Below are positions 1,688 through 19,604 of a DNA stretch of 20,447 bases, one piece after another (the first letter of the stretch is position 1; each line of letters opens with the position of its first letter). The notes below the pieces were generated by a model. It saw nothing but the letters and a program-made list of their open reading frames with translations, ran no database searches and was not told where the DNA came from. Origin of the DNA: Elusimicrobia bacterium CG08_land_8_20_14_0_20_44_26. GTDB taxonomy: Bacteria > CG03. Where the stretch lies: NCBI GenBank assembly GCA_002779055.1, contig PEXM01000020.1:1-20447 (forward strand), given 5' to 3'. A program made the position numbers and the translations under genes.

Positions 1688-1705
1688 TATATCTCCTTAT
1701 CAAGG

Positions 1706-1794
1706 TTACAAGGGTGGTGGGAGGGTAGCGTTCGCTTTTCCTCCTTACAAGGGTGGTGGGAGGGTAGCGTTCGCTTTTCCTCCTTACAAGGGCG
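1706..1794 (-). repeat. Two 39-bp tandem repeats (family A) between tig and clpP
   Basis: Two copies of a 39-bp unit lie at 1706-1744 and 1745-1783, followed by a broken third copy at 1784-1794. Read on the gene strand, the core is CTACCCTCCCACCACCCTTG followed by TAAGGAGG. They fill the gap between the tig stop and the clpP start. The same core occurs before tig and wecB, always in this orientation relative to the downstream gene. Confidence 0.9.
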
Positions 1795-1797
1795 CGT

Positions 1798-3000
1798 TCA
1801 TTTTATTTTACCCTCTTTAATTATAAAATCAAATATCTTGTCCGTCAATAGCGTGTTTTTAAGGCGATTGGCATTTTCTTTGCCGTATTTCTCTCCGAGT
1901 TTATTCTTAAAGTCGTCTTCCGTGAGCGTGATGTTTTCCTTTTCCGCAATTTTCCCGAGGAGAAGGGCGAGAGAAATGTTTTTCCGCGACAGGGTTTCTA
2001 TTTCCTTTTCCATACTTTCAATTTTCCGGTCAGGGTATTCTTTTTTTAAAGTGTCTGTCATGGAGTGTTTTTCCTCATCAAGCATTGAGCGGGGAATTTC
2101 CAGAGGATTTTTCTTTAGAATGTAATCGGTTATCTGTTCTCTGATATAGCGGGTGTTTTCAATTTCAAATTCCGCGATGAGGCGGTTTTTTAATACTTCC
2201 TCAAGTTCATTCAGGTTTTTGGCTCCGAAAAGTTGGGCGAATTTATCGTCGGCTTCCGGCAAAATTTTCTCTAAAATGTCCGTTATTTTTATACGGAACG
2301 TCATCTTTTTTCCGGCGAGAGAGCGAATCTCGAAATCCGCCGGCGCCTCAAATGTAATATCCCCGGGTGTGTTTTTTACGAGATTTAGAATGTCTGGCCA
2401 GAGACCCTGCATGAGTTTTTCTTTGCTTATTTCCGCAAGCAGATTTTTTCTGCTTATTCCCTTAACGGACCCTCCTGCTTCAAGGATTTCCATATCGTAT
2501 TTGATAAAAAGATTTTCCTCTGGTTTTTCTTTTTCCACACTCTTAAGCCGGGCGGCAGTTTCTCTCAGGTTTAAAACCGCTTTTTTTATGTCTTCTTCTG
2601 TGACCTCTTTGCTGTTTTTTTTAATTGGGATTTTCTTGTATCCTGAAACATCAAATTCAGGGATTACTTCAAGTTCAACGGAAAAACTCTCAGGAACATC
2701 TCCCGACCATTTAAATTCCATAAGCCTGGCGGGGCTTACAGCACGCAGAGAGTTATCGTCAGCCAATTGGCGGAGTTTCTCCGATATTATGAATTTTTCC
2801 CGCTCGTCTTTGAGTTCTCCCGAATATTCCTTCGTTAAAAACGTATCCGGGACTTTGCCTTTACGAAAGCCGGGGACGCTGACAGAACTTTTTAATTTAT
2901 TTAAGGCGTGCGAGAGAGAGCGTCTGCCTGTATTGTCGTCAATTTTAAATAAGACGCTCTTTAAAGTTTTTGACTTCTCAAGAATTTTTATTCCTTCCAT
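1798..3000 (-). CDS. tig: Trigger factor, ribosome-associated chaperone
   Basis: Trigger factor binds the ribosomal exit tunnel and shields nascent chains. The 400-residue protein carries the ribosome-docking loop VPGFRKGKVP (about residues 43-52). A middle FKBP-type domain covers roughly residues 145-235 and the helical C-terminal chaperone arms follow. The FKBP segment is divergent: the usual MIPGFE-like motif reads LMQGLWPD, so prolyl isomerase activity is doubtful. The start chosen is the ATG at 3000, because AAGGAGAGAAAT precedes it and MEGIKILEKSK fits the family N-terminus. The longer open frame upstream runs through a tRNA gene and is not real. An identical SD-ATG sequence 40 bp upstream opens an 8-residue leader ORF. 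The neighbours clpP and lon make this a quality-control operon. Confidence 0.96.
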   Translation of the reverse strand: MEGIKILEKSKTLKSVLFKIDDNTGRRSLSHALNKLKSSVSVPGFRKGKVPDTFLTKEYSGELKDEREKFIISEKLRQLADDNSLRAVSPARLMEFKWSGDVPESFSVELEVIPEFDVSGYKKIPIKKNSKEVTEEDIKKAVLNLRETAARLKSVEKEKPEENLFIKYDMEILEAGGSVKGISRKNLLAEISKEKLMQGLWPDILNLVKNTPGDITFEAPADFEIRSLAGKKMTFRIKITDILEKILPEADDKFAQLFGAKNLNELEEVLKNRLIAEFEIENTRYIREQITDYILKKNPLEIPRSMLDEEKHSMTDTLKKEYPDRKIESMEKEIETLSRKNISLALLLGKIAEKENITLTEDDFKNKLGEKYGKENANRLKNTLLTDKIFDFIIKEGKIK

Positions 3001-3080
3001 ATTTCTCTCCTTATCAGGGCGGTGGGAGGGTGGCGTCCATATTTCTCTCCTTATCAGGGCGGTGGGAGGGTGGCGTTCGC
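3001..3080 (-). repeat. Two 40-bp tandem repeats (family A) at the tig start
   Basis: Units 3001-3040 and 3041-3080 are identical except for their last few bases on the plus strand (tccat against ttcgc). On the gene strand each unit ends in CCTGATAAGGAGAGAAAT, which is the Shine-Dalgarno sequence of tig. The core CACCCTCCCACCGCCCTGAT is shared with the clpP and wecB repeats. Confidence 0.92.
3014..3040 (-). CDS. Possible 8-residue leader ORF upstream of tig
   Basis: Inside the repeat pair, a copy of the tig SD and ATG opens the peptide MDATLPPP, which ends at TGA 14 bases before the true tig ATG. Its SD and spacing are identical to those of tig, so ribosomes should load on it about as well. 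The peptide ends in three prolines before the stop, a context known to slow ribosomes. A regulatory role is inference; it may be only a by-product of the duplication. Confidence 0.4.
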   Translation of the reverse strand: MDATLPPP

Positions 3081-3107
3081 TTTCTCTCCTTTTCGCTCTT
3101 TCAATTT

Positions 3108-3189
3108 TGCCGGAGGGGAGAGTTGAACTCCCAAGGGTTTTCCCATACGGTCCTAAGCCGTACGCGTCTGCCAGTTTCGCCACTCCGGC
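3108..3189 (-). tRNA. tRNA-Leu (anticodon TAG)
   Basis: On the minus strand a cloverleaf folds with acceptor GCCGGAG pairing CTCCGGC and a D-arm containing CTGGCAGACG. The anticodon loop CTTAGGA (anticodon TAG) is closed by a TACGG/CCGTA stem. There is a long variable arm (TGGGAAAACCC) and a T-arm GGGAG-TTCAACT-CTCCC. The long variable arm and the TAG anticodon identify leucine. CCA is not encoded. The gene sits about 108 bases upstream of tig on the same strand and probably shares its promoter. Confidence 0.95.
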
Positions 3190-3250
3190 AGGAGTCCGCA
3201 CCCGCCTTAGTCGGACACCTTCGGCGGCAGCGGGCCGGACACGCAAAGCA

Positions 3251-3279
3251 ATTTTATATAAATATCCTATTTTTTGCAA
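3251..3279 (-). promoter_or_regulatory. Candidate sigma-70-type promoter for tRNA-Leu/tig/clpP/lon
   Basis: On the minus strand, TTGCAA (3274-3279) and TAAAAT (3251-3256) are separated by 17 bases and point toward tRNA-Leu. It is the best match in the intergenic gap. Assignment is by eye only. Confidence 0.4.
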
Positions 3280-3319
3280 ACAGCCGAATCGGAACTTCAG
3301 TACGTAATTGTTGCACACA

Positions 3320-3348
3320 TTGCAAATTGCGAAAATATTTCATATAAT
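3320..3348 (+). promoter_or_regulatory. Strong sigma-70-type promoter for the sppA operon
   Basis: TTGCAA (3320-3325), a 17-base spacer and a perfect TATAAT (3343-3348). The predicted start of transcription is near 3355, downstream of the GTG/ATG-like codons at about 3308. This supports the ATG at 3383 as the sppA start. Confidence 0.7.
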
Positions 3349-3382
3349 AACAAATACGATATGTTTAAGGGTGGAGGCAGGA

Positions 3383-4267
3383 ATGAAGGAAAAAATATTA
3401 AGTTATCTTTTGCCGGCGCTTCTGCTTTTTTCATCGGTAGCCGTTTTTTTCAAAGAAACAAGCGGCAGTAAAAGCGTCGCGCAACTGGCGGGTAAAGATA
3501 AGGTCGGTCTTATTAAAATTTACGGCATTATTTCTGTAGAACCGCCGAGGGGTGCGTCTTTTGTGGGACTTAGAGGCAGCGACAAATGGGTTCAACAGTT
3601 GAAATTCATGCGCAAAGAGCGCGTCAAAGCGGTTGTTCTGCGGATAAATTCGCCAGGAGGAACAATCGGCGCCTGTCAGGAAGTGGTGGAAGAGATTGAA
3701 AAAATAAAAAAAGACGGAATTCCGGTTGTGGCGTCTCTGGGCGATGTTGCAGCGTCGGGAGGTTATTACATCGCTTCTGCTTGCGATAAAATATTCCTGA
3801 ATCCCGGCACTCTTACGGGTTCCATAGGCGTTATGATGGGTTCATCCGACTGGAGCGAGCTTATGGACAAAATAGGCATCAAACCGGAAGTGATAAAAAG
3901 CGGAAAATACAAGGATATGGGAGCGTATTACAGGGAATTGTCCGAAGAAGAAAGAAAGATGATACAGAGTATGATAGACGGAACTTTTGAGCAGTTTTTG
4001 AGCATTGTATCAAAAGGCCGGAAAATACCGGATGAAAAATTAAGACCCCTTGCGCAGGGGCAGGTTTTTACGGGCGAGCAGGCGATTAAATACGGGTTTG
4101 CCGACAAAATAGGCAATATGAATTCCGCCATTCAGGAGGCGTCGAGTATGGCGGGAATAGTCGGAGAGCCCCGTGTGATTGAAAGTCCGGATATTTTTGA
4201 AAGATTTTTCAGCGCCGTATATGATATGCCCGAAACACTCAGCGATGCGTTGAGGAAAATATGGTAG
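3383..4267 (+). CDS. sppA: Signal peptide peptidase SppA, short S49-family form
   Basis: SppA is a membrane-anchored serine protease that degrades leftover signal peptides. The 294-residue protein starts with one transmembrane anchor (about residues 6-22). It shows the S49 motifs INSPGGT (substrate strand), DVAASGGYY with nucleophile Ser125, and KSGKYKDMG with the general-base lysine best placed at Lys177 by alignment to B. subtilis SppA. The length fits the single-domain Bacillus-type form, not the doubled E. coli form. The ATG at 3383 has GGAGG five bases upstream. The longer frame from 3308 would begin before the promoter's likely start site. The last seven bases overlap the next gene. Confidence 0.93.
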   Translation: MKEKILSYLLPALLLFSSVAVFFKETSGSKSVAQLAGKDKVGLIKIYGIISVEPPRGASFVGLRGSDKWVQQLKFMRKERVKAVVLRINSPGGTIGACQEVVEEIEKIKKDGIPVVASLGDVAASGGYYIASACDKIFLNPGTLTGSIGVMMGSSDWSELMDKIGIKPEVIKSGKYKDMGAYYRELSEEERKMIQSMIDGTFEQFLSIVSKGRKIPDEKLRPLAQGQVFTGEQAIKYGFADKIGNMNSAIQEASSMAGIVGEPRVIESPDIFERFFSAVYDMPETLSDALRKIW

Positions 4268-4848
4268 AGGCGCTATTGCCCCAGCCCCACGGGACGGCCT
4301 TCATCCAGAGTGCGGCGCAGGACTCTGATAGGTCCTTTTACAACTTTATTTTCCGTCCTGAAACCGCATGGAGCGTTTTCACCGCGCGCAGGTCCTTCGT
4401 TCTTTCTCTTTTTGTTTTTCTTGCATCCAGCATCGCGCAGGCCGTCGCTTTTGGCGCCGTAAACGGCGGTTTTTTCATTATGCTTCCGTTCATTTTTTTA
4501 CAATGGATTATTGCCGCCTCTGCGTATCATTTTTTTTCGTATATTTTGGGCGGCAGGGGCGATGTAGTATCTTTCTTTTGTTTGTGGGCGATGACGGATA
4601 TACCGCTCCTCTTTCTGCCGTCGGCAAGAATTTTAAGCCGCCTGTTTTTGAGAAACGGCGTTTTAATTTCGTTTTCATTCATCGCCGCGGTCTATGCGTG
4701 GAGTGCGGCGCTCAAAATCAAACTGCTTAAATTTAATTATCACATTTCATCGTATAATGCGTTTTTTGTTTTTCTTTTCCCCATTGTTGCTGCTGGCGTT
4801 ATTATTGCTTTATCCATTGTCTTATACGCATTGTGGCTCCTCATATGA
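4261..4848 (+). CDS. Yip1-family-like integral membrane protein
   Basis: The 195-residue protein has about five hydrophobic segments (roughly residues 45-66, 71-95, 103-120, 128-150 and 163-194) after a soluble N-terminus. The layout and the early RPETAW motif resemble bacterial Yip1/YIP1-like membrane proteins, whose function is poorly defined. It overlaps sppA by seven bases, and its stop overlaps the argC start as ATGA, so the three genes are translationally coupled. No catalytic motif is visible. The family call is by overall pattern only; a generic multi-pass membrane protein is the alternative. Confidence 0.75.
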   Translation: MVEALLPQPHGTAFIQSAAQDSDRSFYNFIFRPETAWSVFTARRSFVLSLFVFLASSIAQAVAFGAVNGGFFIMLPFIFLQWIIAASAYHFFSYILGGRGDVVSFFCLWAMTDIPLLFLPSARILSRLFLRNGVLISFSFIAAVYAWSAALKIKLLKFNYHISSYNAFFVFLFPIVAAGVIIALSIVLYALWLLI

Positions 4849-5855
4849 TACGCGTATCCATAGCCGGAGTCACTGGTTTTACGGGCGAAGAACTGCTGAA
4901 AATACTCGTTCGTCACCCGGAAGTCCAAATTAAACATCTTATATCCCGCCAGGCGGGGCAGAAAATCAGCGACACCCATCCATCCGTTTTATTTGACGGC
5001 GAAACCGAGAATCTTTCGGTCAACATAATTTCCGACACTGACGTTGTTTTTCTCTGTCTTCCCCATACGGAATCCGCCAGCGCGGCTTACAGGTTTTACG
5101 AGAGAGGGAAAGCCGTGATTGATTTGAGCGCGGATTTTCGCTTCAGAAATGCCACAAATTACAGGAACGTCTATGGCGTTGCGCACCCTTATCCGCGGCT
5201 TCTTTCAAAAGCCGTCTATGGTCTGAGCGAGTTTTACAGGGAAAAAATAAAAGGAGCAAAACTTCTCGCAAATCCAGGATGCTACCCGACGGCTTCTCTT
5301 TTTGCGATACTGCCGGCTCTTATGTCCGGAATTTCCTCCGAAAACGGGATTGTAATAGATGCCAAAAGCGGCATATCCGGCGCGGGTAAGAAACTCGCCG
5401 AGGAATATCTTTTTTCAAGTGTGTATGGAAGCACCCGCGCTTACAGCGTCGGATGCCACCGTCATCAGCCGGAAATAGAGCAGGAAATTCTGCTCATTAC
5501 CGGGAAAAAACCGACGCTTTCTTTCGTTCCTCATCTTTTGCCGCAGGAAAGAGGAATTATGGCGACCGTCTATATGAGGATGAAAGAAATTATCAGAGAA
5601 GAAGCGGTTCTTACCGCTTATCGGAAATTCTACAAAAACGAGCGTTTTGTAAAAGTTCTGCCGCCCGGCTCAATGCCTGCGACGGGAGATGTCTCCGGCA
5701 CGAACAATGTGAGAATCGGAATCGCCGTGGACAGGCGCGCGGGGACGCTCATTGTGATATCGGTTATAGATAATCTTATAAAAGGCGCATCGGGTCAGGC
5801 GGTGCAAAATATGAATATAATGTTTGGCTTTGAGGAATCGACGGCTCTTAAATAA
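4845..5855 (+). CDS. argC: N-acetyl-gamma-glutamyl-phosphate reductase
   Basis: ArgC catalyses the NADPH-dependent third step of arginine/ornithine synthesis, reducing N-acetylglutamyl phosphate to the semialdehyde. The 336 residues show the Rossmann motif GVTGFTGEEL (residues 8-17), the active-site Cys146 in NPGCYPTA, SGISGAG, and the histidine region GCHRHQPEIEQ. The start at ATG 4845 fits the family N-terminus (MIRVSIAG) and overlaps the upstream stop as ATGA. A GTG four codons earlier is possible but unlikely. argJ follows after a repeat-filled gap, so the two form an arginine module inside a longer operon. Confidence 0.97.
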   Translation: MIRVSIAGVTGFTGEELLKILVRHPEVQIKHLISRQAGQKISDTHPSVLFDGETENLSVNIISDTDVVFLCLPHTESASAAYRFYERGKAVIDLSADFRFRNATNYRNVYGVAHPYPRLLSKAVYGLSEFYREKIKGAKLLANPGCYPTASLFAILPALMSGISSENGIVIDAKSGISGAGKKLAEEYLFSSVYGSTRAYSVGCHRHQPEIEQEILLITGKKPTLSFVPHLLPQERGIMATVYMRMKEIIREEAVLTAYRKFYKNERFVKVLPPGSMPATGDVSGTNNVRIGIAVDRRAGTLIVISVIDNLIKGASGQAVQNMNIMFGFEESTALK

Positions 5856-5869
5856 GTGAAGAGTGAAGA

Positions 5870-5985
5870 GGGAAGAGTGAAGAGAAAACCCCCTCTCAAT
5901 CTCCCCCTTGGAAAGGGGGAGAAGACAGGGAAGAGTGAAGAGAAAACCCCCTCTTAGCTCTCCCCTTGAAAAGGGGGAGAGGAGA
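5870..5985 (+). repeat. Two 58-bp tandem repeats with hairpins (family B) between argC and argJ
   Basis: Two units start at 5870 and 5928. Each contains GAAGAGTGAAGAGAAAACCC followed by an inverted repeat. In unit 1, CTCCCCCTT (5901-5909) pairs with AAGGGGGAG (5913-5921) around a three-base loop. Unit 2 has a slightly imperfect version at 5960-5979. There is no T-run after the stems, so these are not standard terminators. Unit 2 ends in GAGAGGAGAGAG directly before the argJ ATG and supplies its SD. Confidence 0.9.
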
Positions 5986-5988
5986 GAG

Positions 5989-7137
5989 ATGAGAAAAAAA
6001 AGATTTCCTTCCGGATTTTTTATTGGTGCTGCGTCGGCGGGAATTAAAGATAATGATAAGGACGTCGGCGTCATATATTGTCCTTGCGGATTCCGGGCGG
6101 CGGCTCTTTTTACAAAAAACAGATTCAAGGCGGCTCCCGTCGTTATTAGCGAAAAACATTTGCCTCTCGGTAAAGTTCTCGTCGTCAATTCAGGCGTCGC
6201 AAACGCCGCCACGGGCGAAAAAGGGCTTCGGGATGCAATGGAAATTGCATCTTACGCGGGAAAGCAGTTTGACGCGTCTCCTGAAGAAGTCCTTATGGCT
6301 TCAACCGGAGTTATAGGAAAGATCCTCCCTCTTCAAAAAATAAAAGCGGGTATAAAAAACATAAAGGAAAGTTTTCTGAGTAAGCCGGTCTCGCCGGATG
6401 ATTTTGCGCAAAGCATTCTTACGACGGATACAAAGCGAAAGACGGTCTGGACGGAAAACTTCTGGGCATGCGCCAAAGGTTCGGGAATGATTTGTCCCGA
6501 TATGGCGACCTTTCTCTGTTTTATAGTGACGGACGCCGCTTTTCCGAAAGGAAAAGAAAAAAGCATTCTCAGGGAATGCGCACAGCCCTTTAACAGAATG
6601 ACCGTTGACGGGGAAATGTCCACCAACGACACCGTTTTTCTGCTTTCTTCCGGCATCAGAAATGTGCCGCGCGAGGCGTCAGCGCTCTCAAAGGAACTCC
6701 TTTATGTTTGCGCTCATCTCGCCGAAAAAATTATTGACGATGGCGAGGGCAGGCACAAAGTTATTGACATCTCCGTCAGGGGCGCGAAATCGTTTTATGA
6801 GGCGAAAAAGACGGCTCTGCATCTTGCAACCTCGCCTCTGATAAAAACGGCGTTTAACGGGGAAAGCCCGAACTGGGGAAGAATTTTATCCCGGGCGGGT
6901 TCCCTCAATGTTCGGATGAGGAGCGAAAAAGTGAGAATAACAATCTGCGGTGTAAAAGTGTTTGCCGCGGGGCAGGGAGGAGCGAAAAATTTTAATGTCC
7001 GCGCTCTTAAAGGGCGTCTCAAAAAAAAGAACGTATCCCTTGAAATAGATCTCGGCGCAGGCGTCGCCGGGTGCGTTTACAGAACGACTGATTTAAGTTG
7101 CGAATATGTTAAAATAAATGCGGGCTATTTGACCTAA
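5989..7137 (+). CDS. argJ: Glutamate N-acetyltransferase (ArgJ)
   Basis: ArgJ moves the acetyl group from N-acetylornithine to glutamate, recycling acetyl in arginine synthesis; some members also use acetyl-CoA. The precursor cleaves itself before a conserved threonine, here Thr174 in KGSGMICPDMAT, giving alpha and beta chains. The C-terminal YVKINAGY block is present. The usual NSGNANA motif reads NSGVANA (Val70). The 382-residue length fits when the ATG at 5989 is used; it has AGGAG just upstream. An open frame begins 27 codons earlier but consists only of translated repeat. Whether it is mono- or bifunctional cannot be told from the sequence. No argB or argD is in the window. Confidence 0.96.
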   Translation: MRKKRFPSGFFIGAASAGIKDNDKDVGVIYCPCGFRAAALFTKNRFKAAPVVISEKHLPLGKVLVVNSGVANAATGEKGLRDAMEIASYAGKQFDASPEEVLMASTGVIGKILPLQKIKAGIKNIKESFLSKPVSPDDFAQSILTTDTKRKTVWTENFWACAKGSGMICPDMATFLCFIVTDAAFPKGKEKSILRECAQPFNRMTVDGEMSTNDTVFLLSSGIRNVPREASALSKELLYVCAHLAEKIIDDGEGRHKVIDISVRGAKSFYEAKKTALHLATSPLIKTAFNGESPNWGRILSRAGSLNVRMRSEKVRITICGVKVFAAGQGGAKNFNVRALKGRLKKKNVSLEIDLGAGVAGCVYRTTDLSCEYVKINAGYLT

Positions 7138-7150
7138 AAGGAGTTGAAAT

Positions 7151-7723
7151 ATGTCGGAAAATAAAGTGTTGACGGTTAAAGAAGCGAGTGCCTCAAAAGA
7201 GTTCCAGAGAGTTGTTGAAACCGTGAAAAACGGCGGAATTATCATTTTCCCTACGGACACCGTTTACGGCATCGGCGCTTCGGTTAAATTCAGCGAAAGC
7301 ATTGATAAAATTTATAGGATCAAGAAAAGGCCGAAGAAAAAACCGATAGTAATTCTGATGTCTTCCTGGCGGGAGTCCTCTCATCTTGTGGGCAGGGTGA
7401 GCCAGAGGGTGAGGACGATGATGAAAGAGTACTGGCCGGGAGCGACCACTCTGATTCTCTCAGGCAGAGCCCGCCCCATTGCTTTGAGGGTTCCGAACCA
7501 CAAGTTCGCGCTGCAACTTCTCTCTGCTGTAGGGCCTATGGCGGTTACCTCCGCCAATATATCAGGTGAACCTGCTCCTGCGGTTTTTAGCGGCATAGAA
7601 AAAGATTTGCTCAAACAGGCGGATATCGTTATCAAAGACGAAAAGCCCCTGAAAGGCGTATCTTCCACGATTATAGACGTCACCTCGGGCGAGATTGAAA
7701 TTATCCGCGAAGGCAAGCTTTAA
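7151..7723 (+). CDS. ywlC: Threonylcarbamoyl-AMP synthase (TsaC/YwlC/YrdC family)
   Basis: This enzyme makes L-threonylcarbamoyladenylate from threonine, bicarbonate and ATP, the first step of the t6A37 modification of ANN-decoding tRNAs. The 190 residues form one YrdC domain with IIIFPTDTVYGIGA (about 30-43), KKRPKKKP, the WPGATTLIL block, and TSANISGEPAP. It is the short form without the C-terminal Sua5 domain. AAGGAG lies seven bases before the ATG. A 13-bp gap separates it from argJ and four bases separate it from the next gene, as expected for co-transcription. Confidence 0.95.
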   Translation: MSENKVLTVKEASASKEFQRVVETVKNGGIIIFPTDTVYGIGASVKFSESIDKIYRIKKRPKKKPIVILMSSWRESSHLVGRVSQRVRTMMKEYWPGATTLILSGRARPIALRVPNHKFALQLLSAVGPMAVTSANISGEPAPAVFSGIEKDLLKQADIVIKDEKPLKGVSSTIIDVTSGEIEIIREGKL

Positions 7724-7727
7724 CGGG

Positions 7728-8165
7728 GTGAAAAAGGTTCTTTTTGTGTGCACGGGAAACACCTGCCGCTCGGTAATGGCGGAAGGAATTTTTAATAAAA
7801 TTACCGGAGGAAATCACGCCGAATCGGCAGGCATGGCGGCAAATCCGTTGTATAACATTTTCGGGTCGCTGGCGGCAATAATGGACGAGGAGGAAATTCC
7901 GTACGCGAATCATGTTTCAACGCCTGTTTCCGCAGAACTTTTAAAGGAAGCGGATATTGTTCTCGCAATGGAGGCGGAGCACTTAGATTACTTAAAAAAG
8001 AATTTTCCGACTTATACATCAAAGGTTTTTCTTTTGACGGAATTTGCGGACGAAGAGGGAGACATACGAGACCCCATAGGGCAGCCGGAGACAGAATACA
8101 GAAAAACATTCGCAAGGATAGAAGAGCTTGTAAAAAAGGTCGTAAGGAAATTAGAATTGACTTAA
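7728..8165 (+). CDS. ywlE: Low-molecular-weight phosphatase, YwlE (protein-arginine phosphatase) type
   Basis: The 145-residue protein has the LMW-PTP phosphate loop C-x5-R as CTGNTCRS near its N-terminus (Cys8, Arg14) and the general-acid region DPIGQPE near residue 120. The threonine in CTGNTCR is the residue linked to phosphoarginine specificity in B. subtilis YwlE; tyrosine phosphatases usually have Ile or Leu there. The YwlE-like C-terminal DP-[FI]-G pattern agrees. The GTG at 7728 is chosen because MKKVLFVCTGN is the family start, although its SD is weak. Context (ywlC before, glyA after) matches the Bacillus ywlC-ywlE-glyA neighbourhood. No McsB kinase is visible, so the substrate remains inferred. 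Confidence 0.85.
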   Translation: MKKVLFVCTGNTCRSVMAEGIFNKITGGNHAESAGMAANPLYNIFGSLAAIMDEEEIPYANHVSTPVSAELLKEADIVLAMEAEHLDYLKKNFPTYTSKVFLLTEFADEEGDIRDPIGQPETEYRKTFARIEELVKKVVRKLELT

Positions 8166-8169
8166 TGTA

Positions 8170-8220
8170 GAGGAAACACCCCCTCTCAATCTCCCCCTTT
8201 TTAAGGGGGAGAAGTAGGGG
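8170..8220 (+). repeat. Family B hairpin repeat before glyA
   Basis: A perfect 9-bp stem, CTCCCCCTT (8191-8199) and AAGGGGGAG (8203-8211), surrounds a TTT loop. It is preceded by ACCCCCTCTCAAT, nearly identical to the flank of the argC-argJ repeat. It lies in the 84-bp gap before glyA. There is no T-run after the stem. Confidence 0.85.
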
Positions 8221-8249
8221 TTAACGCGTAAAATGCAGAGGTGAAGAAT

Positions 8250-9497
8250 ATGTTTGAGCATCTGAAAAAAGAAGATTCCGAAGTGTTTGAATCAATTAAA
8301 AACGAAGTGAAAAGGCAGGAAGAAAACCTGGAACTAATTGCTTCCGAAAATTATGTCTCACGGGCGGTTATGGAAGCCCAGGGTTCGCCTCTCACTAACA
8401 AATACGCTGAAGGTTATCCCGGCAAAAGATATTACGGCGGGTGTCGTTTCTACGATGAAATAGAAAAACTCGCTCAGGAAAGATGCAAGAAACTCTTTAA
8501 CGCCGAACACGTGAACGTTCAGCCCCATTCGGGGACACAGGCGAACATGGCCGTGTATTTTTCCGTTTTAAGTCCGGGGGATACGATAATGGGAATGCAT
8601 CTTTCTCACGGGGGACATCTTTCCCACGGTCATCCCACTTCATTTTCCGGCAGATATTTCTACACCGTGCCGATTGAGCTCGACAGAAAAACGGGAAGGA
8701 TTGACTATGATACCCTGATGAAGCTTGCCAAAAAAAATAAGCCGAAACTCATCGTGGCCGGGGCTTCCGCTTATTCAAGAATTATTGATTTTAAGAAATT
8801 CAGGGAAATATGCGACAGCGTGGGCGCGTATCTGATGTCAGACATCGCCCACATTGCCGGTCTCATAGCGGCAGGCATACATCCTTCTCCTTTTCCGTAT
8901 TCCGATTTTGTCACCTCAACAACGCACAAGACCCTCAGAGGTCCGCGGGGGGGTCTTCTTATGTGCAGGAAGGAATTTGCCGAGCTCGTTGATAAAAATA
9001 TTTTTCCGGGAATTCAGGGCGGCCCTCTGATGCACGTGATTGCGGCAAAAGCCGTGGCTTTCGGAGAGGCCCTGACGCCGGAATTTAAGCAGTACCAGAA
9101 ACAGGTCGTAAAAAACAGCAAGACACTCGCCGAAGAACTCATTAAAAAAGGTTTTGATATCGTCACCGGCGGCACGGACAACCATTTATTTCTTGTTGAC
9201 CTGAGAAGAAAGAACATAAAAGGTAAAGACGCACAGGAGATTCTTGAAAAGGTGTCAATCGCGACAAATAAGAACTCAATACCTTTTGACACTGAAAAGC
9301 CCTTCATAACGTCGGGAATAAGATTGGGCACCCCTGCTGTCACGACGCGCGGGATGAAGGAAAAAGAGATGCTGAAAATAGCGGATTTTATAGGAAGGGC
9401 GCTTGATGCGGCGGAAGATGAGGGGAAACTCAAAGAAATAAAAAAGGAAGTTCTGGAACTCTCAAAAAAATTTCCCGTCTATAAAATTAAATTGTAA
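8250..9497 (+). CDS. glyA: Serine hydroxymethyltransferase
   Basis: GlyA is a PLP enzyme interconverting serine and glycine with tetrahydrofolate, and a main source of one-carbon units. The 415 residues match the family length (E. coli 417). Motifs seen are [10 protein letters not shown] (28-37), [14 protein letters not shown] (51-64), PHSGTQAN (92-99), SDIAHIAGL with the PLP-ring aspartate (Asp198), and [14 protein letters not shown] with the PLP lysine Lys227. The ATG at 8250 is preferred over a GTG nine bases earlier because AGAGGTGA is then correctly spaced as the SD. The next gene begins immediately after the stop. Confidence 0.98.
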
Positions 9498-10484
9498 ATG
9501 ATTTATATTTTTTCCTTCCTGATTCCCGTTATTTTTATCCTTATTTTTGAGCCGTATATTCTCGGAATTGCAGAAAGTTTTCACATTTACGACCGTCCCA
9601 ACAGCCGTAAAATTCACACGCGTCTGATTCCGCTGTGGGGTGGCGTGGGCATCTGGCTGAGCGTCTGGGCGGCTCTTGCCGTGGTTTATATTTTTTCAGG
9701 CGCCGTCAGAAAGCTTGCTTTTGAAAACCTGTCCGCGATAAAAGGAATATTTCTCGGCAGCGCCATAATACTCGTCACCGGCATGGCTGACGACAAACGC
9801 GGGGTCACCCCGACCGTCAAACTTCTGGCGCAGCTCGTGGCGGTTCTCGTCGTTCTCATATATGGAGTCCAAATCAGCGGCATAAAGATACCTTTTCTGC
9901 ATTATGTGAAATTGACGCGTTTCACCTCAATAATAATAACGGCTTTCTGGCTTTTGGCTTTTACGAACATCATCAATCTTATAGACGGAATTGACGGCCT
10001 CGCCAGCGGCATATCGGGCATCGCGGCGCTCACATTTTCAATTGTGGTTCTGATAGAATCCAATTTCGGTCTTCTTCAGGACGGAAAGTTTTTTGCGATT
10101 TTTTCCCTTCTTATAGCAGGGGCGTGTTTCGGTTTCCTTTATTTTAATTTTCCTCCTGCGGGCGTCTTTCTCGGGGATTCGGGCAGTTTACTTCTCGGTT
10201 TTTTTCTCGGCATTGTGGCGATTCAGGGCATGCTTAAACTGACTGCGACCATTGCCCTCATAATTCCCGTTATTGTCGTGGCTCTTCCCGTGATAGATGT
10301 TTTCTTCGCCATCATAAGGCGCAAAAAAGCGCAGGTGCCGATAATGAAGCCGGATTCCGACCACATTCACCATCGTCTGCTTAAAAGCGGCTGGACCCCG
10401 AGGGAAATAGACCTGCTGCTCTATAATCTGACGCTGCTTCTGGCGATTGCCGCGATAATCATTACGGTTTTCTCGCTCAAATAG
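9498..10484 (+). CDS. wecA: Undecaprenyl-phosphate GlcNAc-1-phosphate transferase (WecA/TagO/MraY superfamily)
   Basis: This polytopic enzyme transfers a sugar-1-phosphate from a UDP-sugar to undecaprenyl phosphate, starting synthesis of surface glycans. The 328 residues contain about ten hydrophobic segments and the superfamily motifs in order: MADDKRG (catalytic Asp-Asp), NIINLIDGIDGLASG, VFLGDSGSLLLG, and the cytoplasmic HIHHRLL loop typical of WecA/TagO and not MraY. It directly abuts glyA and is followed by wecB, whose product interconverts UDP-GlcNAc and UDP-ManNAc, so UDP-GlcNAc is the likely substrate. Which glycan is made is unknown; no other glycan genes are nearby. Confidence 0.92.
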   Translation: MIYIFSFLIPVIFILIFEPYILGIAESFHIYDRPNSRKIHTRLIPLWGGVGIWLSVWAALAVVYIFSGAVRKLAFENLSAIKGIFLGSAIILVTGMADDKRGVTPTVKLLAQLVAVLVVLIYGVQISGIKIPFLHYVKLTRFTSIIITAFWLLAFTNIINLIDGIDGLASGISGIAALTFSIVVLIESNFGLLQDGKFFAIFSLLIAGACFGFLYFNFPPAGVFLGDSGSLLLGFFLGIVAIQGMLKLTATIALIIPVIVVALPVIDVFFAIIRRKKAQVPIMKPDSDHIHHRLLKSGWTPREIDLLLYNLTLLLAIAAIIITVFSLK

Positions 10485-10490
10485 TCGTGG

Positions 10491-10574
10491 GAAAACGAAC
10501 GCTACCCTCCCACCACCCTGATAAGGAATTAAGATTGACGCCACCCTCCCACCGCCCTTGTAAGGAGGGAAAAC
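10491..10574 (+). repeat. Two family A repeat copies overlapping the wecB start
   Basis: Copies with cores CTACCCTCCCACCACCCTGA (10502-10521) and CCACCCTCCCACCGCCCTTG (10541-10560) lie in the same orientation as the gene. They end in TAAGGAATT and TAAGGAGGG. This is the same element as at tig and clpP. The second copy lies inside the wecB reading frame. Confidence 0.9.
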
Positions 10575-11710
10575 GTAAAATAATTCTCACATTCGGCACT
10601 CGGCCTGAGGCGATAAAAATGGCGCCGGTTTATTTTGCCTTGAAGAAAGACCCGTCGTTTACGGTTAAACTTGTCCTCACCGGCCAACACACGGAAATGC
10701 TTGACGAAGCTCTTGAGGTTTTCGGTTTGCGGCCGGATTACAATCTCAACATAATGCTTGCGCACCAGACGCCTACGGATATAATGTCCAACGCTGTGAA
10801 AAAACTCGGCGTTATCTATGAGGAGGAAAAGCCGCACCTTGTCCTTGTTCACGGCGACACATCAACGACTCTTGCCGCATCCATCGCCGCTTTTTACGGA
10901 GGCATCCCCGTCTGCCACGTTGAAGCGGGGTTGAGAACGGGCGAAAGGAAAGAGCCCTTTCCCGAAGAGATGAACAGGATTCTTACGGATAGGTTAGCGG
11001 ATATTCTTTTTCCTCCCACAAGTCATGCGGCGGAAAATATTATCAAAGAAGGGCTGAAAGTGCCTTTAATGACGGTGACGGGAAATACCATTGTGGACGC
11101 CGTTTTGCTGGCGCGGGCGAAAAGGCGCGCCCTACTGCCGCGCGGAATTCGTCGGCTTGCGGCCCGGCCTTTCGTTCTTTTCACGATGCACAGAAGAGAA
11201 TCGTGGGGAGCCCCGATGGAGAGCGTATTTTTTCTTTTGAAAGAACTTTTCCGCAAAAAGGGATTTCCGGGTCTTGTTTTCCCCGTTCACCCGAATCCGG
11301 CGGTTAAAAAACCCGCTCTCAAAATATTTTCCGGCTGTGAAAACATTGTGCTTACAAAACCGCTCCGTTATAACGAACTTTTGTTTCTTCTTGCCAGATG
11401 CCTTTTCGTAATAACCGATTCAGGGGGCATACAGGAGGAAGCGGCGGTCCTTAAAAAAAGAGCCGTGCTCTTGCGTAGATTTACGGAGCGTCCTGAGGGC
11501 GTCGCGGCGGGTTTTGTGAAAATAACGGGGACAAATCCCGCAAAAATAGAAAAAGAAGTTCTGTTTCTGTTGAATAATCCCGGAGTTCTTGGTAAAATGA
11601 AAAAAATAAAGAACCCTTACGGAGACGGCAGAGCGGCTTTGCGAATTCGCGGGGCTCTGCGAAAATATTTTGGTCTCGCGGCGGGCGCGAAAATAAAGGA
11701 CTTTAAGTAA
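10535..11710 (+). CDS. wecB: UDP-N-acetylglucosamine 2-epimerase (non-hydrolysing), start altered by repeat
   Basis: WecB/MnaA reversibly converts UDP-GlcNAc to UDP-ManNAc, a precursor of surface polysaccharides. Family motifs are FGTRPEAIKMAPV at the N-terminus, VHGDTSTTLA, HVEAGLRTGERKEPFPEEMNR (key His, Glu and Arg), TMHRRESWG, and TDSGGIQEEA. Homologues begin one to six residues before the FGTRPEA strand, but here the matching codons are AAACGTAAAATAATT with no ATG, GTG or TTG. The best start is TTG 10535, with AAGGA six bases upstream, adding about 15 repeat-encoded residues to a 391-residue product. GTG 10487 is in frame but has no SD. Initiation at a rare ATA/ATT codon near 10580 is also possible. 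The family is certain; the start is not. Confidence 0.93.
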   Translation: MTPPSHRPCKEGKRKIILTFGTRPEAIKMAPVYFALKKDPSFTVKLVLTGQHTEMLDEALEVFGLRPDYNLNIMLAHQTPTDIMSNAVKKLGVIYEEEKPHLVLVHGDTSTTLAASIAAFYGGIPVCHVEAGLRTGERKEPFPEEMNRILTDRLADILFPPTSHAAENIIKEGLKVPLMTVTGNTIVDAVLLARAKRRALLPRGIRRLAARPFVLFTMHRRESWGAPMESVFFLLKELFRKKGFPGLVFPVHPNPAVKKPALKIFSGCENIVLTKPLRYNELLFLLARCLFVITDSGGIQEEAAVLKKRAVLLRRFTERPEGVAAGFVKITGTNPAKIEKEVLFLLNNPGVLGKMKKIKNPYGDGRAALRIRGALRKYFGLAAGAKIKDFK

Positions 11711-11965: not shown

Positions 11966-12478
11966 ATGAATTTCAAGACATTAGAAAAGATTAGTTATGG
12001 TATGTATATCGTGAGTTCCAAAAAAAATGATAAGATTAACGGACAGGTTGCTAACTCAGTTTTCCAAATAACCTCAACACCTGCTAAAATTGCCATCTCT
12101 ATTAATAAAAATAATTTAACTCACAGTTTTATTGAAGAAAGCAAGTTATTCTGTATATCTATTCTACCTACCGATTTTCCGTTGAAATTAATCGGGCAGT
12201 TTGGATTTAAATCAGGAAAAGAAATAAATAAGTTTGAAAATATAGAATATAAATTAACGAAAAACGGGCTACCGTATCTTAAAAATTCTCTTGTTTTTAT
12301 AGAATGCAAAGTTATAAATTTTGTTTCTGAAGGGACTCACACTATTTTTATAGGTGAAGTGATTGAGTCAGACATCTTAAATATAGGAGAACCTATGACC
12401 TATTCTTATTATCATGAAATAAAAGGAGGCGGTGTCTCCAAAAATGCGCCGCATTATATAGAAAAGGAGGAAAAGTAA
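11966..12478 (+). CDS. Flavin reductase-like FMN-binding protein
   Basis: The 170-residue protein matches the FMN-binding split-barrel flavin reductase family: [26 protein letters not shown] near the N-terminus, then [37 protein letters not shown], and a late GEVIES strand. This is the same domain that is fused to rubredoxin in the high-molecular-weight rubredoxin (Hrb) of Moorella, which reduces FprA with NAD(P)H. Here rubredoxin follows as a separate gene after two bases. The SD is a strong GGGGGA before ATG 11966. Codons are clearly AT-richer than in wecB. Its proposed job, passing NAD(P)H electrons to rubredoxin, rests on family and context. Confidence 0.88.
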
Positions 12479-12480
12479 AA

Positions 12481-12642
12481 ATGAAAAAATACAAATGTAC
12501 TGTCTGTAATTATATTTACGACCCGGAAAAAGGAGACCCTGAAAGTGGTATAAAACCAGGGACACCATTTGAAGAATTGCCTGATGATTGGGTTTGTCCT
12601 GTGTGCGGTGCAGATAAATCATTATTTGAAAAGGAGGAGTGA
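12481..12642 (+). CDS. rub: Rubredoxin
   Basis: This 53-residue electron carrier binds one Fe(Cys)4 centre in the cytoplasm. Both knuckles are present: CTVC (Cys6, Cys9) and CPVC (Cys39, Cys42), with conserved aromatic residues and the [20 protein letters not shown] and [11 protein letters not shown] blocks. It lies two bases after the flavin reductase and one base before fprA, and its own tail encodes the GGAGG SD of fprA. The context says it shuttles electrons from the flavin reductase to FprA and probably to desulfoferrodoxin. Confidence 0.97.
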
Positions 12643-12643
12643 A

Positions 12644-13825
12644 ATGCCTATCATGGAAATAAAACCTAATATTTTTGCCGTAGGCACAATAGATTGGGAC
12701 AGAAGATTATTTGATGAATTAATTCCACTTCCCGACGGGACAAGTTATAATTCCTATCTTATTAAAGGAAGTGAAAAGATTGCCTTAATTGATACGGTCG
12801 ACCCAATAAAAGAAGATGAACTTGTAGATAATCTTAAAAAATCGAATATAAATAAAATTAACTATGTTATTTCGAATCATGCCGAACAAGACCATTCAGG
12901 CGGGCTCCCAAAAATTCTCAGTGCCTATCCGGATGCGAAAGTTGTAACAAATCCAAAATGTAAAGATATACTAATGGACCTGCTTTTAATTCCTGAAGAT
13001 AAATTTATAACCATACAGAATGGCGAAACTTTATCACTGGGAGATAAGACACTTGAATTTATAATTGCTCCCTGGGTTCACTGGCCAGAGACAATGCTTA
13101 CATATTTAAGAGAAGATAAAATTTTATTTCCCTGCGATTTATTTGGTTCGCACTTGGCAACAAGTGAGTTGTATGTAACCGATGAATGCAAAATCTATCA
13201 GTCAGCAAAAAGATATTATGCCGAGATTATGATGCCGTTCAGGACAAATATAAAAAAGCACATAGAAAAATTAAATAATTATGAAATTGAAATAATTGCA
13301 CCAAGCCATGGCCCTGTTTACAATAAATCTGAGTTTATTATGAATGCCTATAAGGATTGGACTTCTGATAATGTAAAGAATGAGGTTATTTTACCATTTG
13401 TATCAATGCACAATTCAACAAGAAAAATGGTTGACTATTTTATATCTGCATTAATAAAAAGAAATATAACTGTAAAACCTTTTAATTTAGCAAAGACAGA
13501 TATTGGCGAACTTGCAATGTCACTTGTAGACGCATCAACCATAGTTATTGGTTCACCTACAGTTTTAACAGGGCCGCATCCGCAAGTTCTTTATGCTGTT
13601 TATCTTGCAAATGCGTTAAGACCGAAATTAAAATATGCATCAGTTATCGGCTCTTACAGTTGGGGCGGTAGAATGTTGGATATAATTAAAAGTATGATTA
13701 CAAATTTAAAAGTGGAACTAATTGAGCCGGTTATGATAAAAGGTTATCCAAAAGAAGATGACTTTAAATTATTGGATAAATTAGCGGATGAAATATTGAA
13801 AAAACATAATAATGAAGGGATATAA
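12644..13825 (+). CDS. fprA: FprA-type diiron flavoprotein (rubredoxin:oxygen/NO oxidoreductase)
   Basis: FprA reduces O2 to water, or NO to N2O, in anaerobes. The N-terminal metallo-beta-lactamase-like domain carries the diiron ligands His79, Glu81 and Asp83 (with His84) in HAEQDHSGG, then WVHWPET, CDLFGSH and APSHGP. The C-terminal flavodoxin domain begins near residue 250 (FVSMHNSTRKMVDYF) and has GSPTVLTGPHP and the GSYSWGG loop for FMN. The 393-residue length is normal for the two-domain form without fused rubredoxin. The start at ATG 12644 has GGAGG upstream. The flanking rubredoxin and flavin reductase form its likely reducing chain. Choice between O2 and NO as the physiological substrate cannot be made from the sequence. 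Confidence 0.96.
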   Translation: MPIMEIKPNIFAVGTIDWDRRLFDELIPLPDGTSYNSYLIKGSEKIALIDTVDPIKEDELVDNLKKSNINKINYVISNHAEQDHSGGLPKILSAYPDAKVVTNPKCKDILMDLLLIPEDKFITIQNGETLSLGDKTLEFIIAPWVHWPETMLTYLREDKILFPCDLFGSHLATSELYVTDECKIYQSAKRYYAEIMMPFRTNIKKHIEKLNNYEIEIIAPSHGPVYNKSEFIMNAYKDWTSDNVKNEVILPFVSMHNSTRKMVDYFISALIKRNITVKPFNLAKTDIGELAMSLVDASTIVIGSPTVLTGPHPQVLYAVYLANALRPKLKYASVIGSYSWGGRMLDIIKSMITNLKVELIEPVMIKGYPKEDDFKLLDKLADEILKKHNNEGI

Positions 13826-13916
13826 AAACTGTGAAAAAGACAATCTTGCGACCACGAAAGAAGTTTTTATCAGATTAAATGTGAGGAATGTTAAAAATTT
13901 GAAGAGGTGAAAAGAT

Positions 13917-14285
13917 ATGACAGTTCAAAAACAAATTTATAAGTGTAATGTTTGTGGCAATATAGTTGAAGTTTTGCATGCGGGTGCAGGGCAACTTGTC
14001 TGTTGCGGACAACCGATGGAATTGCTTAAAGAAAAAATGGAAGATGTCGGGAGAGAGAAACATGTGCCCGTTATTGAAAAAACAGAAACAGGAATAAAAA
14101 TAAAAGTCGGTTCTGTGCCTCATCCGATGGAAGAAAAACACTATATTGAATGGATAGAGATAATCGCCGATGGCAGAGTTTATAGAAAGTTCTCCGGGGA
14201 TAAACCAGAAGCAGAGTTTGAAATAAAAGCAGAAAAAATTGAGGCAAGAGAATACTGCAATCTTCACGGCTTGTGGAAATCATAA
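13917..14285 (+). CDS. dfx: Desulfoferrodoxin (2Fe superoxide reductase)
   Basis: Dfx reduces superoxide to hydrogen peroxide without making O2, using electrons from rubredoxin. The 122 residues show the N-terminal desulforedoxin-type centre I (CNVCG at 10-14 and CCGQPM) and the catalytic centre II ligands in [17 protein letters not shown] and the C-terminal [18 protein letters not shown] precedes ATG 13917. It lies 91 bases after fprA in the same AT-rich block and is probably part of the same operon. The gap holds no clear promoter. Confidence 0.97.
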
Positions 14286-18308: not shown

Positions 18309-18310
18309 AG

Positions 18311-18353
18311 AACCGTCCCCATTTTTGGGTTAGTGAAAATGTAGGACGTCCCC
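18311..18353 (-). repeat. REP-like direct repeat GGGGACG x2
   Basis: On the minus strand GGGGACGTCC (ending at 18344) and GGGGACGGTT (18311-18320) are spaced 33 bases apart. The first lies inside the last codons of the membrane-protein gene. GGGGACG-type motifs are associated with REP/RayT elements in other genomes; that link is inference here. Confidence 0.5.
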
Positions 18354-18983
18354 TTTTTCCACAAACAAAAGAGGGAATATAATATCGCTGAAGCAGCAGG
18401 GAAACCACACGGCTATAAAAAGAAATACAACAACAACACAAGAGCCAACTCCCGTGATTACTCCGGCGCTAAGTATGTGAAAAAGCGAAGCCCATGTGCT
18501 TAAAAGAATATGCGCCGCGTGGGGAAACTTCGTCGAAGGAAAGAAATACGCAACGGCTATTCCGATAACCGCCAAAGGATTAACAATATACCACTCCTCT
18601 ATAAAACCCAGGTGTGTGCCCTTGTTTGGGAGCCCTAACAACCACTCGCCTATGTATGGAATAAGAGAATCGCTTATTGTGGCAATACCGACGGAACCAA
18701 TGTATCCTATTGCCAGAAGCCAAAATAATGGATATTTCTCCTTTAACTTTCCGCGCTTGTGTAGCTCATACATAGATGCAGTGACAAGGGCGCTCAAAAA
18801 AACATGACCAGGATGAAGCACATAAAAAATATTCAAGGCCGAGCCCGAACTTATTTTACTGAAAATAAACATTAAAATAATTCCTGAAACCGCGCCGCCG
18901 GCAGTAAAGGGAGCGTGACGAAGCATTTCTGTTTTAACTCTCAAAAACAAACCGTTTTTTCCACTACCCGAAAAATTATTCAT
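18330..18983 (-). CDS. Multi-pass membrane protein of unknown function, histidine-bearing
   Basis: The 217-residue protein has five or six hydrophobic segments (about 26-45, 55-72, 86-105, 132-148 and 160-207). Histidines cluster near membrane borders: HAPF (23), HPGH (57-60), HLGF (124) and HAAH (155-158), as would suit metal or heme binding, though no known transporter motif is recognised. Its C-terminus VEKGDVLHFH is encoded by a REP-like motif and may be a replacement of the original end. AAGGGA precedes ATG 18983. A 25-codon ORF overlaps its start by eight bases, suggesting coupling. Confidence 0.8.
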   Translation of the reverse strand: MNNFSGSGKNGLFLRVKTEMLRHAPFTAGGAVSGIILMFIFSKISSGSALNIFYVLHPGHVFLSALVTASMYELHKRGKLKEKYPLFWLLAIGYIGSVGIATISDSLIPYIGEWLLGLPNKGTHLGFIEEWYIVNPLAVIGIAVAYFFPSTKFPHAAHILLSTWASLFHILSAGVITGVGSCVVVVFLFIAVWFPCCFSDIIFPLLFVEKGDVLHFH

Positions 18984-19490: not shown

Positions 19491-19532
19491 ATTTTCGGTG
19501 TCCCGAAAAATCCCCTCTGACTCCGGACAAAT

Positions 19533-19583
19533 CTCCCCTGGCCCCTCTTTTTCAAAGAGGGGAATACCTTTTTCAAAGGGGAG
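19533..19583. repeat. Nested hairpin repeat, family B relative
   Basis: The inner perfect stem CCCCTCTTT (19542-19550) / AAAGAGGGG (19554-19562) lies within an outer CTCCCCT (19533-19539) / AGGGGAG (19577-19583). It has the same CTCCCC/GGGGAG style as the argC-argJ and glyA repeats. It separates divergent transcription units. Confidence 0.7.
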
Positions 19584-19604
19584 AACCAGGGTTGTAACAG
19601 GTAA

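Follow-up and report, generated by a model that had tools for sequence, protein, structure and literature searches.

The window analysed here is a stretch of 20,447 nucleotides (positions 1 to 20,447 of contig PEXM01000020.1) from the Elusimicrobia bacterium CG08_land_8_20_14_0_20_44_26, and it carries a short repeat at the starts of clpP, tig and wecB. Throughout the draft assembly of this organism (G000; 715,001 bases, 89 contigs, 63.7% complete), 14 copies are present at seven sites. With a probability of about 0.7, the repeat seems to be a non-autonomous insertion repeat, some 39 bp long and specific to this lineage, found only at translation starts and in sense orientation, that would work like the mycobacterial interspersed repetitive units (MIRUs) reportedly described by Supply et al. 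in 1997.

Repeat units and their distribution

The unit, RACGCYACCCTCCCACCRCCCTKRTAAGGAG, has 39 letters; each unit occupies 39-40 bp, of which 31 nt are conserved and the remainder is local spacer. Its exact core, CCCTCCCACCRCCCT, lies on the minus strand at 1711-1725, 1750-1764, 3016-3030 and 3056-3070 and on the plus strand at 10505-10519 and 10544-10558, forming three pairs with a spacing of 39 (clpP), 40 (tig) and 39 nt (wecB). An earlier note on this DNA had described six copies in three pairs, all reading in the direction of the gene that follows, and both points hold: all six are present with exact cores, and all are sense to clpP, tig or wecB. The first two arrays are detected as tandem repeats by Tandem Repeats Finder (TRF), and units within any one site are nearly identical, as expected of tandem amplification. 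Shuffled sequence gave a mean of 0.44 matches at no more than 3 mismatches, and none of 100 shuffles reached the seven found in the window, the seventh of which (3368-3382) has 3 mismatches and is treated as chance. A 13-nt search for the end carrying the Shine-Dalgarno (SD) sequence alone found eight places, all inside the arrays, one of them being a truncated clpP unit.

The core search of the whole assembly returned 15 rows, 14 of which were kept as copies; the match at C53:5074, with 2 mismatches and no TAAGGAG after the core, was rejected as a chance match. The copies are distributed as follows, the last target being an open reading frame (ORF):

clpP, window, minus strand: two full units and one truncated unit (the latter not in the count)
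tig, window, minus strand: two units
wecB, window, plus strand: two units
metK, contig C21: three units
TPR-like gene after pilQ, contig C27: three units
ribD, contig C64: one unit, one base lost
cstA-like ORF after coaD, contig C88: one unit

The orthologous ORF in the same-family genome G003 is cstA, and for this reason the C88 target is probably cstA as well; the ORF itself leaves its contig after about 15 codons. For the TPR-like gene, the TPR_19 match is below the gathering score, and orthology was assigned from its position after pilQ and from similar first codons. The target genes have no common pathway.

The earlier note had expected most copies genome-wide to sit at gene starts in one orientation, and in this 64%-complete assembly all 14 copies are sense and all seven sites are at gene starts. 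The last core is separated from the start codon by 14 nt at metK, the TPR-like gene and the cstA-like gene, by 15 at tig, by 12 at ribD and by 23 at clpP; at wecB, a TTG lies 15 nt past copy 1 and copy 2 is within the gene. Under a rough null, sense placement between -20 and +15 of a start, an interval set after seeing the data and referring to the inferred empty sites, has a per-site probability of 0.021 if every position and orientation is allowed and of 0.156 if limited to intergenic or start-proximal DNA. For seven sites jointly these values become ~2e-12 and ~2e-6, with gene starts picked by reading and one window taken as proxy for the genome.

An assembly or binning artefact is hardly credible as the origin of this pattern. 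The assembly is a draft of 89 contigs, and 58 nt separate the C88 copy from the edge of its contig; against this stand seven gene contexts with distinct unit variants, and neighbors that match those of relatives at tig|clpP, wecA|wecB, metK, coaD and pilQ.

At clpP and tig the following features are recognized:

1693-1699, minus strand: TAAGGAG, likely SD of clpP (ATG at 1687)
1706-1792, minus strand: clpP array, two full 39-nt units and part of a truncated upstream unit (TRF period 39, 2.2 copies, 100% matches)
1779-1801, minus strand: truncated clpP unit with the mini-ORF MNAPL-stop
3001-3091, minus strand: tig array, two 40-nt units with the flank duplication AAGGAGAGAAA
3007-3013, minus strand: TAAGGAG, likely SD of tig (ATG at 3000)
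3014-3040, minus strand: tig unit 2, mini-ORF MDATLPPP-stop, with the SD of unit 1 ahead of it

Empty orthologous sites and flank duplications

Orthologous places for the seven sites (tig|clpP, tig start, wecA|wecB, metK start, ribD, coaD|cstA and pilQ|TPR-like gene) were compared in six same-family genomes, that is, at 42 places, of which 41 were readable, the coaD junction of G006 (L081) being left out. The repeat is missing at all 41, and therefore the copies appear to be lineage-specific insertions; a 22-nt motif of the repeat, allowing at most 1 mismatch, is likewise missing from all six genomes. In these relatives, stop and start codons overlap (ATGA or GTGA) at metK in five of six, at clpP in four of six and at coaD|cstA in four of the five read, and when the array is taken out of the window genome a junction of this kind is left at metK and the cstA-like gene. 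The arrays at four of the seven sites are flanked by exact duplications, 16 nt long at metK, 11 nt at tig, 10 nt at the cstA-like gene and 9 nt at wecB. Some relatives' TPR-like genes and clpP genes open with the same letters as the left edge of the repeat (ATGGACGCC and ATGAACGC, respectively), and hence the first ATG at these two sites looks like the displaced ancestral start. At clpP, the ATG of the truncated unit (1801-1799) overlaps the tig stop TGA (1800-1798), and clpP of G002, G004 and G005 begins with the same eight letters, ATGAACGC, overlapping the tig stop there too.

The arrays at wecB and at the TPR-like gene have 50 identical nucleotides in common, non-core spacer included, and units therefore seem to have been copied between sites. 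This bears on the idea of an independent tandem duplication at each start, with no dispersal, which would fit arrays that are tandem and spacers that resemble the local SD. Given the shared spacer, and given that a conserved unit missing at the orthologous places of relatives would hardly arise seven times, such an origin is very improbable, and the shared core already contradicts it.

Beyond the family, the exact core is missing from 58 of 60 other genomes, with single matches in G001 and G034 in other contexts. The match in G001 (L016, 1501-1515, minus strand) consists of the exact core CCCTCCCACCACCCT followed by ACAAGG, beside an apparent broken tRNA gene start, and may reflect either remote kinship with the repeat or coincidence. 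Elsewhere, three matches to the 22-nt motif lie in genome contigs and one in viral contigs, in contexts unrelated by eye (the one in L032 is a hairpin), and the clpP array has no match among phages and plasmids.

A separate family of palindromes like CCCCCACC..GGTGGGGG occurs at 27 places in G003 (loci L097-L106), some mutually nested by eye. One stands between a riboswitch terminator and ribD, at the same place as the ribD copy of the present repeat. From ten of the 27 places viewed, this family was set aside as a different repeat.

These data can be held against the possibility that the unit is a repeat comparable to repetitive extragenic palindromic (REP) sequences or miniature inverted-repeat transposable elements (MITEs), inserted with no target preference, of which only harmless copies located at starts and carrying an SD survive. 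Its length of 39 bp preserves reading frames, and among the ten G003 palindromes viewed one lies directly before a start (ribD) and the rest look scattered by eye. Plain intergenic insertions should be harmless too, yet none of the seven sites lies away from a start or in antisense (rough p 2e-6), and at wecB the insertion fell inside the gene, no more than a dozen bases past its start. REP- and MITE-type palindromic repeats are dispersed, short and multi-copy, and the present unit differs from them in being non-palindromic by eye, in its single orientation and in being found only at starts. We consider untargeted insertion unlikely. The earlier note had offered either targeting or selection: insertion at or near translation starts stands (seven of seven sites, with the relatives empty), and either targeting or a selection of harmless insertions may account for it.

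Insertion within wecB

At wecB, the repeat has apparently entered coding sequence:

10487-10489, plus strand: presumed ancestral wecB start GTG
10489-10575, plus strand: duplicated GGGAAAACG (10489-10497 and 10567-10575) enclosing two 39-nt units that keep the frame of the ancestral coding sequence
10522-10537, plus strand: likely current wecB start TTG (10535-10537) with the TAAGGA of unit 1
10561-10568, plus strand: TAAGGAGG of unit 2, with no canonical start after it and so not the wecB SD

The 78-nt insert begins just past the ancestral start and preserves the frame. If it is removed, wecB reads GTG GGA AAA CGT AAA ATA ATT (MGKRKIILTFGTRP), comparable to MAKKIILTF and MRKKIILTF in relatives. 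No in-frame ATG, GTG or TTG exists between copy 2 and the ATG at 10619, and a start at this ATG would lose the conserved GTRPE motif, so that the start has to be either TTG 10535 or GTG 10487. Of the two, TTG 10535, which follows the TAAGGA of copy 1, is the probable current start; the ancestral GTG 10487 is the alternative. From TTG 10535, unit 2 would be translated (MTPPSHRPCKEGKRKIIL...), and the product of 391 aa has a near-full Epimerase_2 match; since no canonical start follows TAAGGAGG of copy 2, this copy is coding. The corresponding database protein, P0001, has 363 aa, starts at the internal Met at 10619 (MAPVYF...) and is without the GTRPE motif, probably due to the insertion having removed the canonical start. 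A protein search with wecB, in which the best 120 of 7999 scored candidates were listed, was also used to look for copy-number variants through the N-terminus; besides the window's own protein, none among these 120 exceeds 64% identity.

The note had also proposed that the SD at the end of the repeat is used by clpP, tig and wecB. This probably holds for tig. At clpP the gene-proximal unit ends in TGTAACC, and a separate TAAGGAG (1693-1699), starting 11 nt past the core of that unit, probably serves instead; at wecB copy 2 no canonical start follows.

Mini-ORFs, Shine-Dalgarno sequences and folding

In the frame of the old start, the unit reads start-N/D-A-T-L-P-P-P-(L)-stop. A stop (TAA or TGA) follows PPP or PPPL in the core frame in all 14 copies, the stop of the last unit ends 9-18 nt before the gene start (six sites measured), and in most units the stop overlaps or just precedes an SD-like GGA(G). 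An ATG for the mini-ORF exists in five of the seven arrays; at the level of units, the start position is ATG in four of the 14 full units (metK-1, TPR-1, cstA-1 and tig-2) and in the truncated clpP unit.

In the mechanism that we propose, insertion would leave the ancestral start codon upstream, and at several sites this old start would begin a mini-ORF 5-9 codons long, which reads M-[N/D]-ATLPPP-(L) except in the truncated clpP unit, where it is MNAPL. With the repeat would come a new SD, TAAGGAG or one of its variants, meeting the mini-ORF stop. Having loaded at the old start, ribosomes would terminate at this SD and start again on the gene, and because of this re-initiation an insertion might come at low cost. 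Units would amplify in tandem and sometimes be copied between sites, either by transposition or by template switching primed by the SD-like sequence; SD-primed copying would account for orientation, position and the SD-bearing flanks. A pause at PPP-stop needing EF-P is possible.

For SD accessibility, six repeat sites and 33 control starts from the window and from relatives were considered, with start sites picked by reading; 30 controls with an SD were used and three without one were dropped, and one control (win5988) is one base off. The mean probability of the SD being unpaired is 0.30 for the repeat (n=6, ribD excluded) vs 0.32 for controls (n=30; Mann-Whitney p=0.73), and masking of the SD by an internal CCCTCC/GGAGG hairpin was rejected on account of this equal accessibility. 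When the mini-ORF is held open in the model, accessibility of the SD rises from 0.22 to 0.60 at metK and from 0.25 to 0.51 at the cstA-like gene (in this longer-stretch folding the C88 start is one base off), a release that coupling would call for. An Rfam scan of the window found only tRNAs, and a scan of L014 found only an FMN riboswitch upstream of the ribD copy, the metK, TPR and cstA-like loci being outside the scan.

Some of these features would suit a cis-regulatory leader or attenuator shared by the targets, with joint regulation arising either from pairing of CCCTCC to the SD GGAGG or from stalling of ribosomes by the PPP mini-ORF. CCCTCC and GGAGG(G) can pair, with isolated unit hairpins of -3.3 to -10.2 kcal/mol in the six unit variants; the modelled SD becomes free at metK and the cstA-like gene; PPP precedes the stop in all 14 copies, and within codons 3-8 all three columns that vary are synonymous third positions, too few to prove coding constraint. 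Orthologues in the family are without the repeat, and copy 2 of wecB is coding. A shared regulatory role is poorly supported because the unrelated targets have no common pathway, the accessibility of the SD equals that of controls and the decayed ribD copy is out of frame and without its SD; for the same reasons, the suggestion in the earlier note that the element tunes translation across many genes is not supported. Joint regulation is thus improbable, and a low-cost passenger fits better.

Several observations weigh against the reading of the repeat as a MIRU-like insertion element. The ribD unit is frameshifted, wecB and ribD are without an ATG mini-ORF, and in nine full units the start position is ACG, GCG or ATT. 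In clpP unit 2, the stop is followed by CC, not by GGAG. Holding the mini-ORF open has little effect on the SD at four sites (clpP, tig, wecB and the TPR-like gene). At three of the seven sites (clpP, the TPR-like gene and ribD) exact flank duplications of at least 7 nt are missing, and neither terminal inverted repeats nor a palindrome were seen in the aligned units, judged by eye. Passive filtering of random insertions could also apply. Mobility, the copying mechanism and translation of the mini-ORF are what we infer, mobility from copies in one assembly because there is a single carrier genome.

Relation to known repeats

MIRUs are tandem, sense-oriented units of about 50-100 bp inserted into overlapping stop and start codons. 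The present repeat, which is missing from relatives, resembles them in its position at seven of seven gene starts and in its internal mini-ORF, a likeness by description. It differs in its unit of 39-40 bp, in its lineage and in one in-frame coding insertion (wecB). The host is not mycobacterial: the nearest wecB matches with a phylum label, among the best 120 of 7999, are Elusimicrobia metagenome-assembled genomes. According to one review, MIRUs are apparently mobile, insert at start codons, couple an internal ORF to the downstream gene at -4 nt and are expected to have minimal impact on expression (PMC12548453). At the six sites measured here, the mini-ORF stop lies 9-18 nt upstream beside a repeat-borne SD, with no -4 overlap.

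The TAACTGA repeats of marine Beggiatoaceae are, in the available part of their description, dispersed short tandem repeats, mostly "forward," just upstream of starts and with no functional pattern; they are heptamers of little SD character, and no unit of mini-ORF plus SD is described there (PMC4679880). The Rickettsia palindromic elements (RPEs), as far as the available part of the source covers them, are palindromic sequences of about 150 bp placed in frame in unrelated protein genes (PMC10969869). They share the in-frame coding insertion with the wecB site, which is only one of seven sites here, and no tie to start codons is described in that part. A literature search short on subscription papers yielded MIRUs, TAACTGA repeats and RPEs as analogues and no record of the present repeat.

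Should the MIRU-like reading be true, start-codon-hiding repeats with a mini-ORF and an SD have at least two origins, one in mycobacteria and one here. Repeats of this type make new N-termini and leader ORFs that are misread by gene callers, as for P0001 of wecB, and they would constitute a compact natural coupling module open to laboratory reporter testing. A further-reaching version, which we put forward tentatively and with more doubt than confidence, would have the unit as a 39-bp portable translational coupler, an unusually small start-codon-targeted mobile repeat that arose independently of MIRUs in an Elusimicrobia-related lineage. It would convert the old start codon into a mini-ORF ending in PPP and pass ribosomes on to its own SD, and in this way could spread at low cost through essential genes.

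Neighboring observations

A second repeat family is present in the window at 5869-5984 and 8159-8216, consisting of a 58-nt tandem unit with the hairpin CTCCCCCTT..AAGGGGGAG located before argJ and glyA (Pfam ArgJ and SHMT); similar C-rich hairpins are seen by eye at 19530-19590 and in G003 loci. A short repeat with GGACGTCCCC(T)TTTT at 18309-18360 is also present upstream of ribD in G004 and G005. Between 12001 and 14000 the window has about 33% GC, vs 41-50% in other 1-kb steps, and the ORFs at 11966-14285 (flavin reductase, rubredoxin, ODP-type and desulfoferrodoxin) form an oxygen-defence cluster, possibly acquired from a foreign source.

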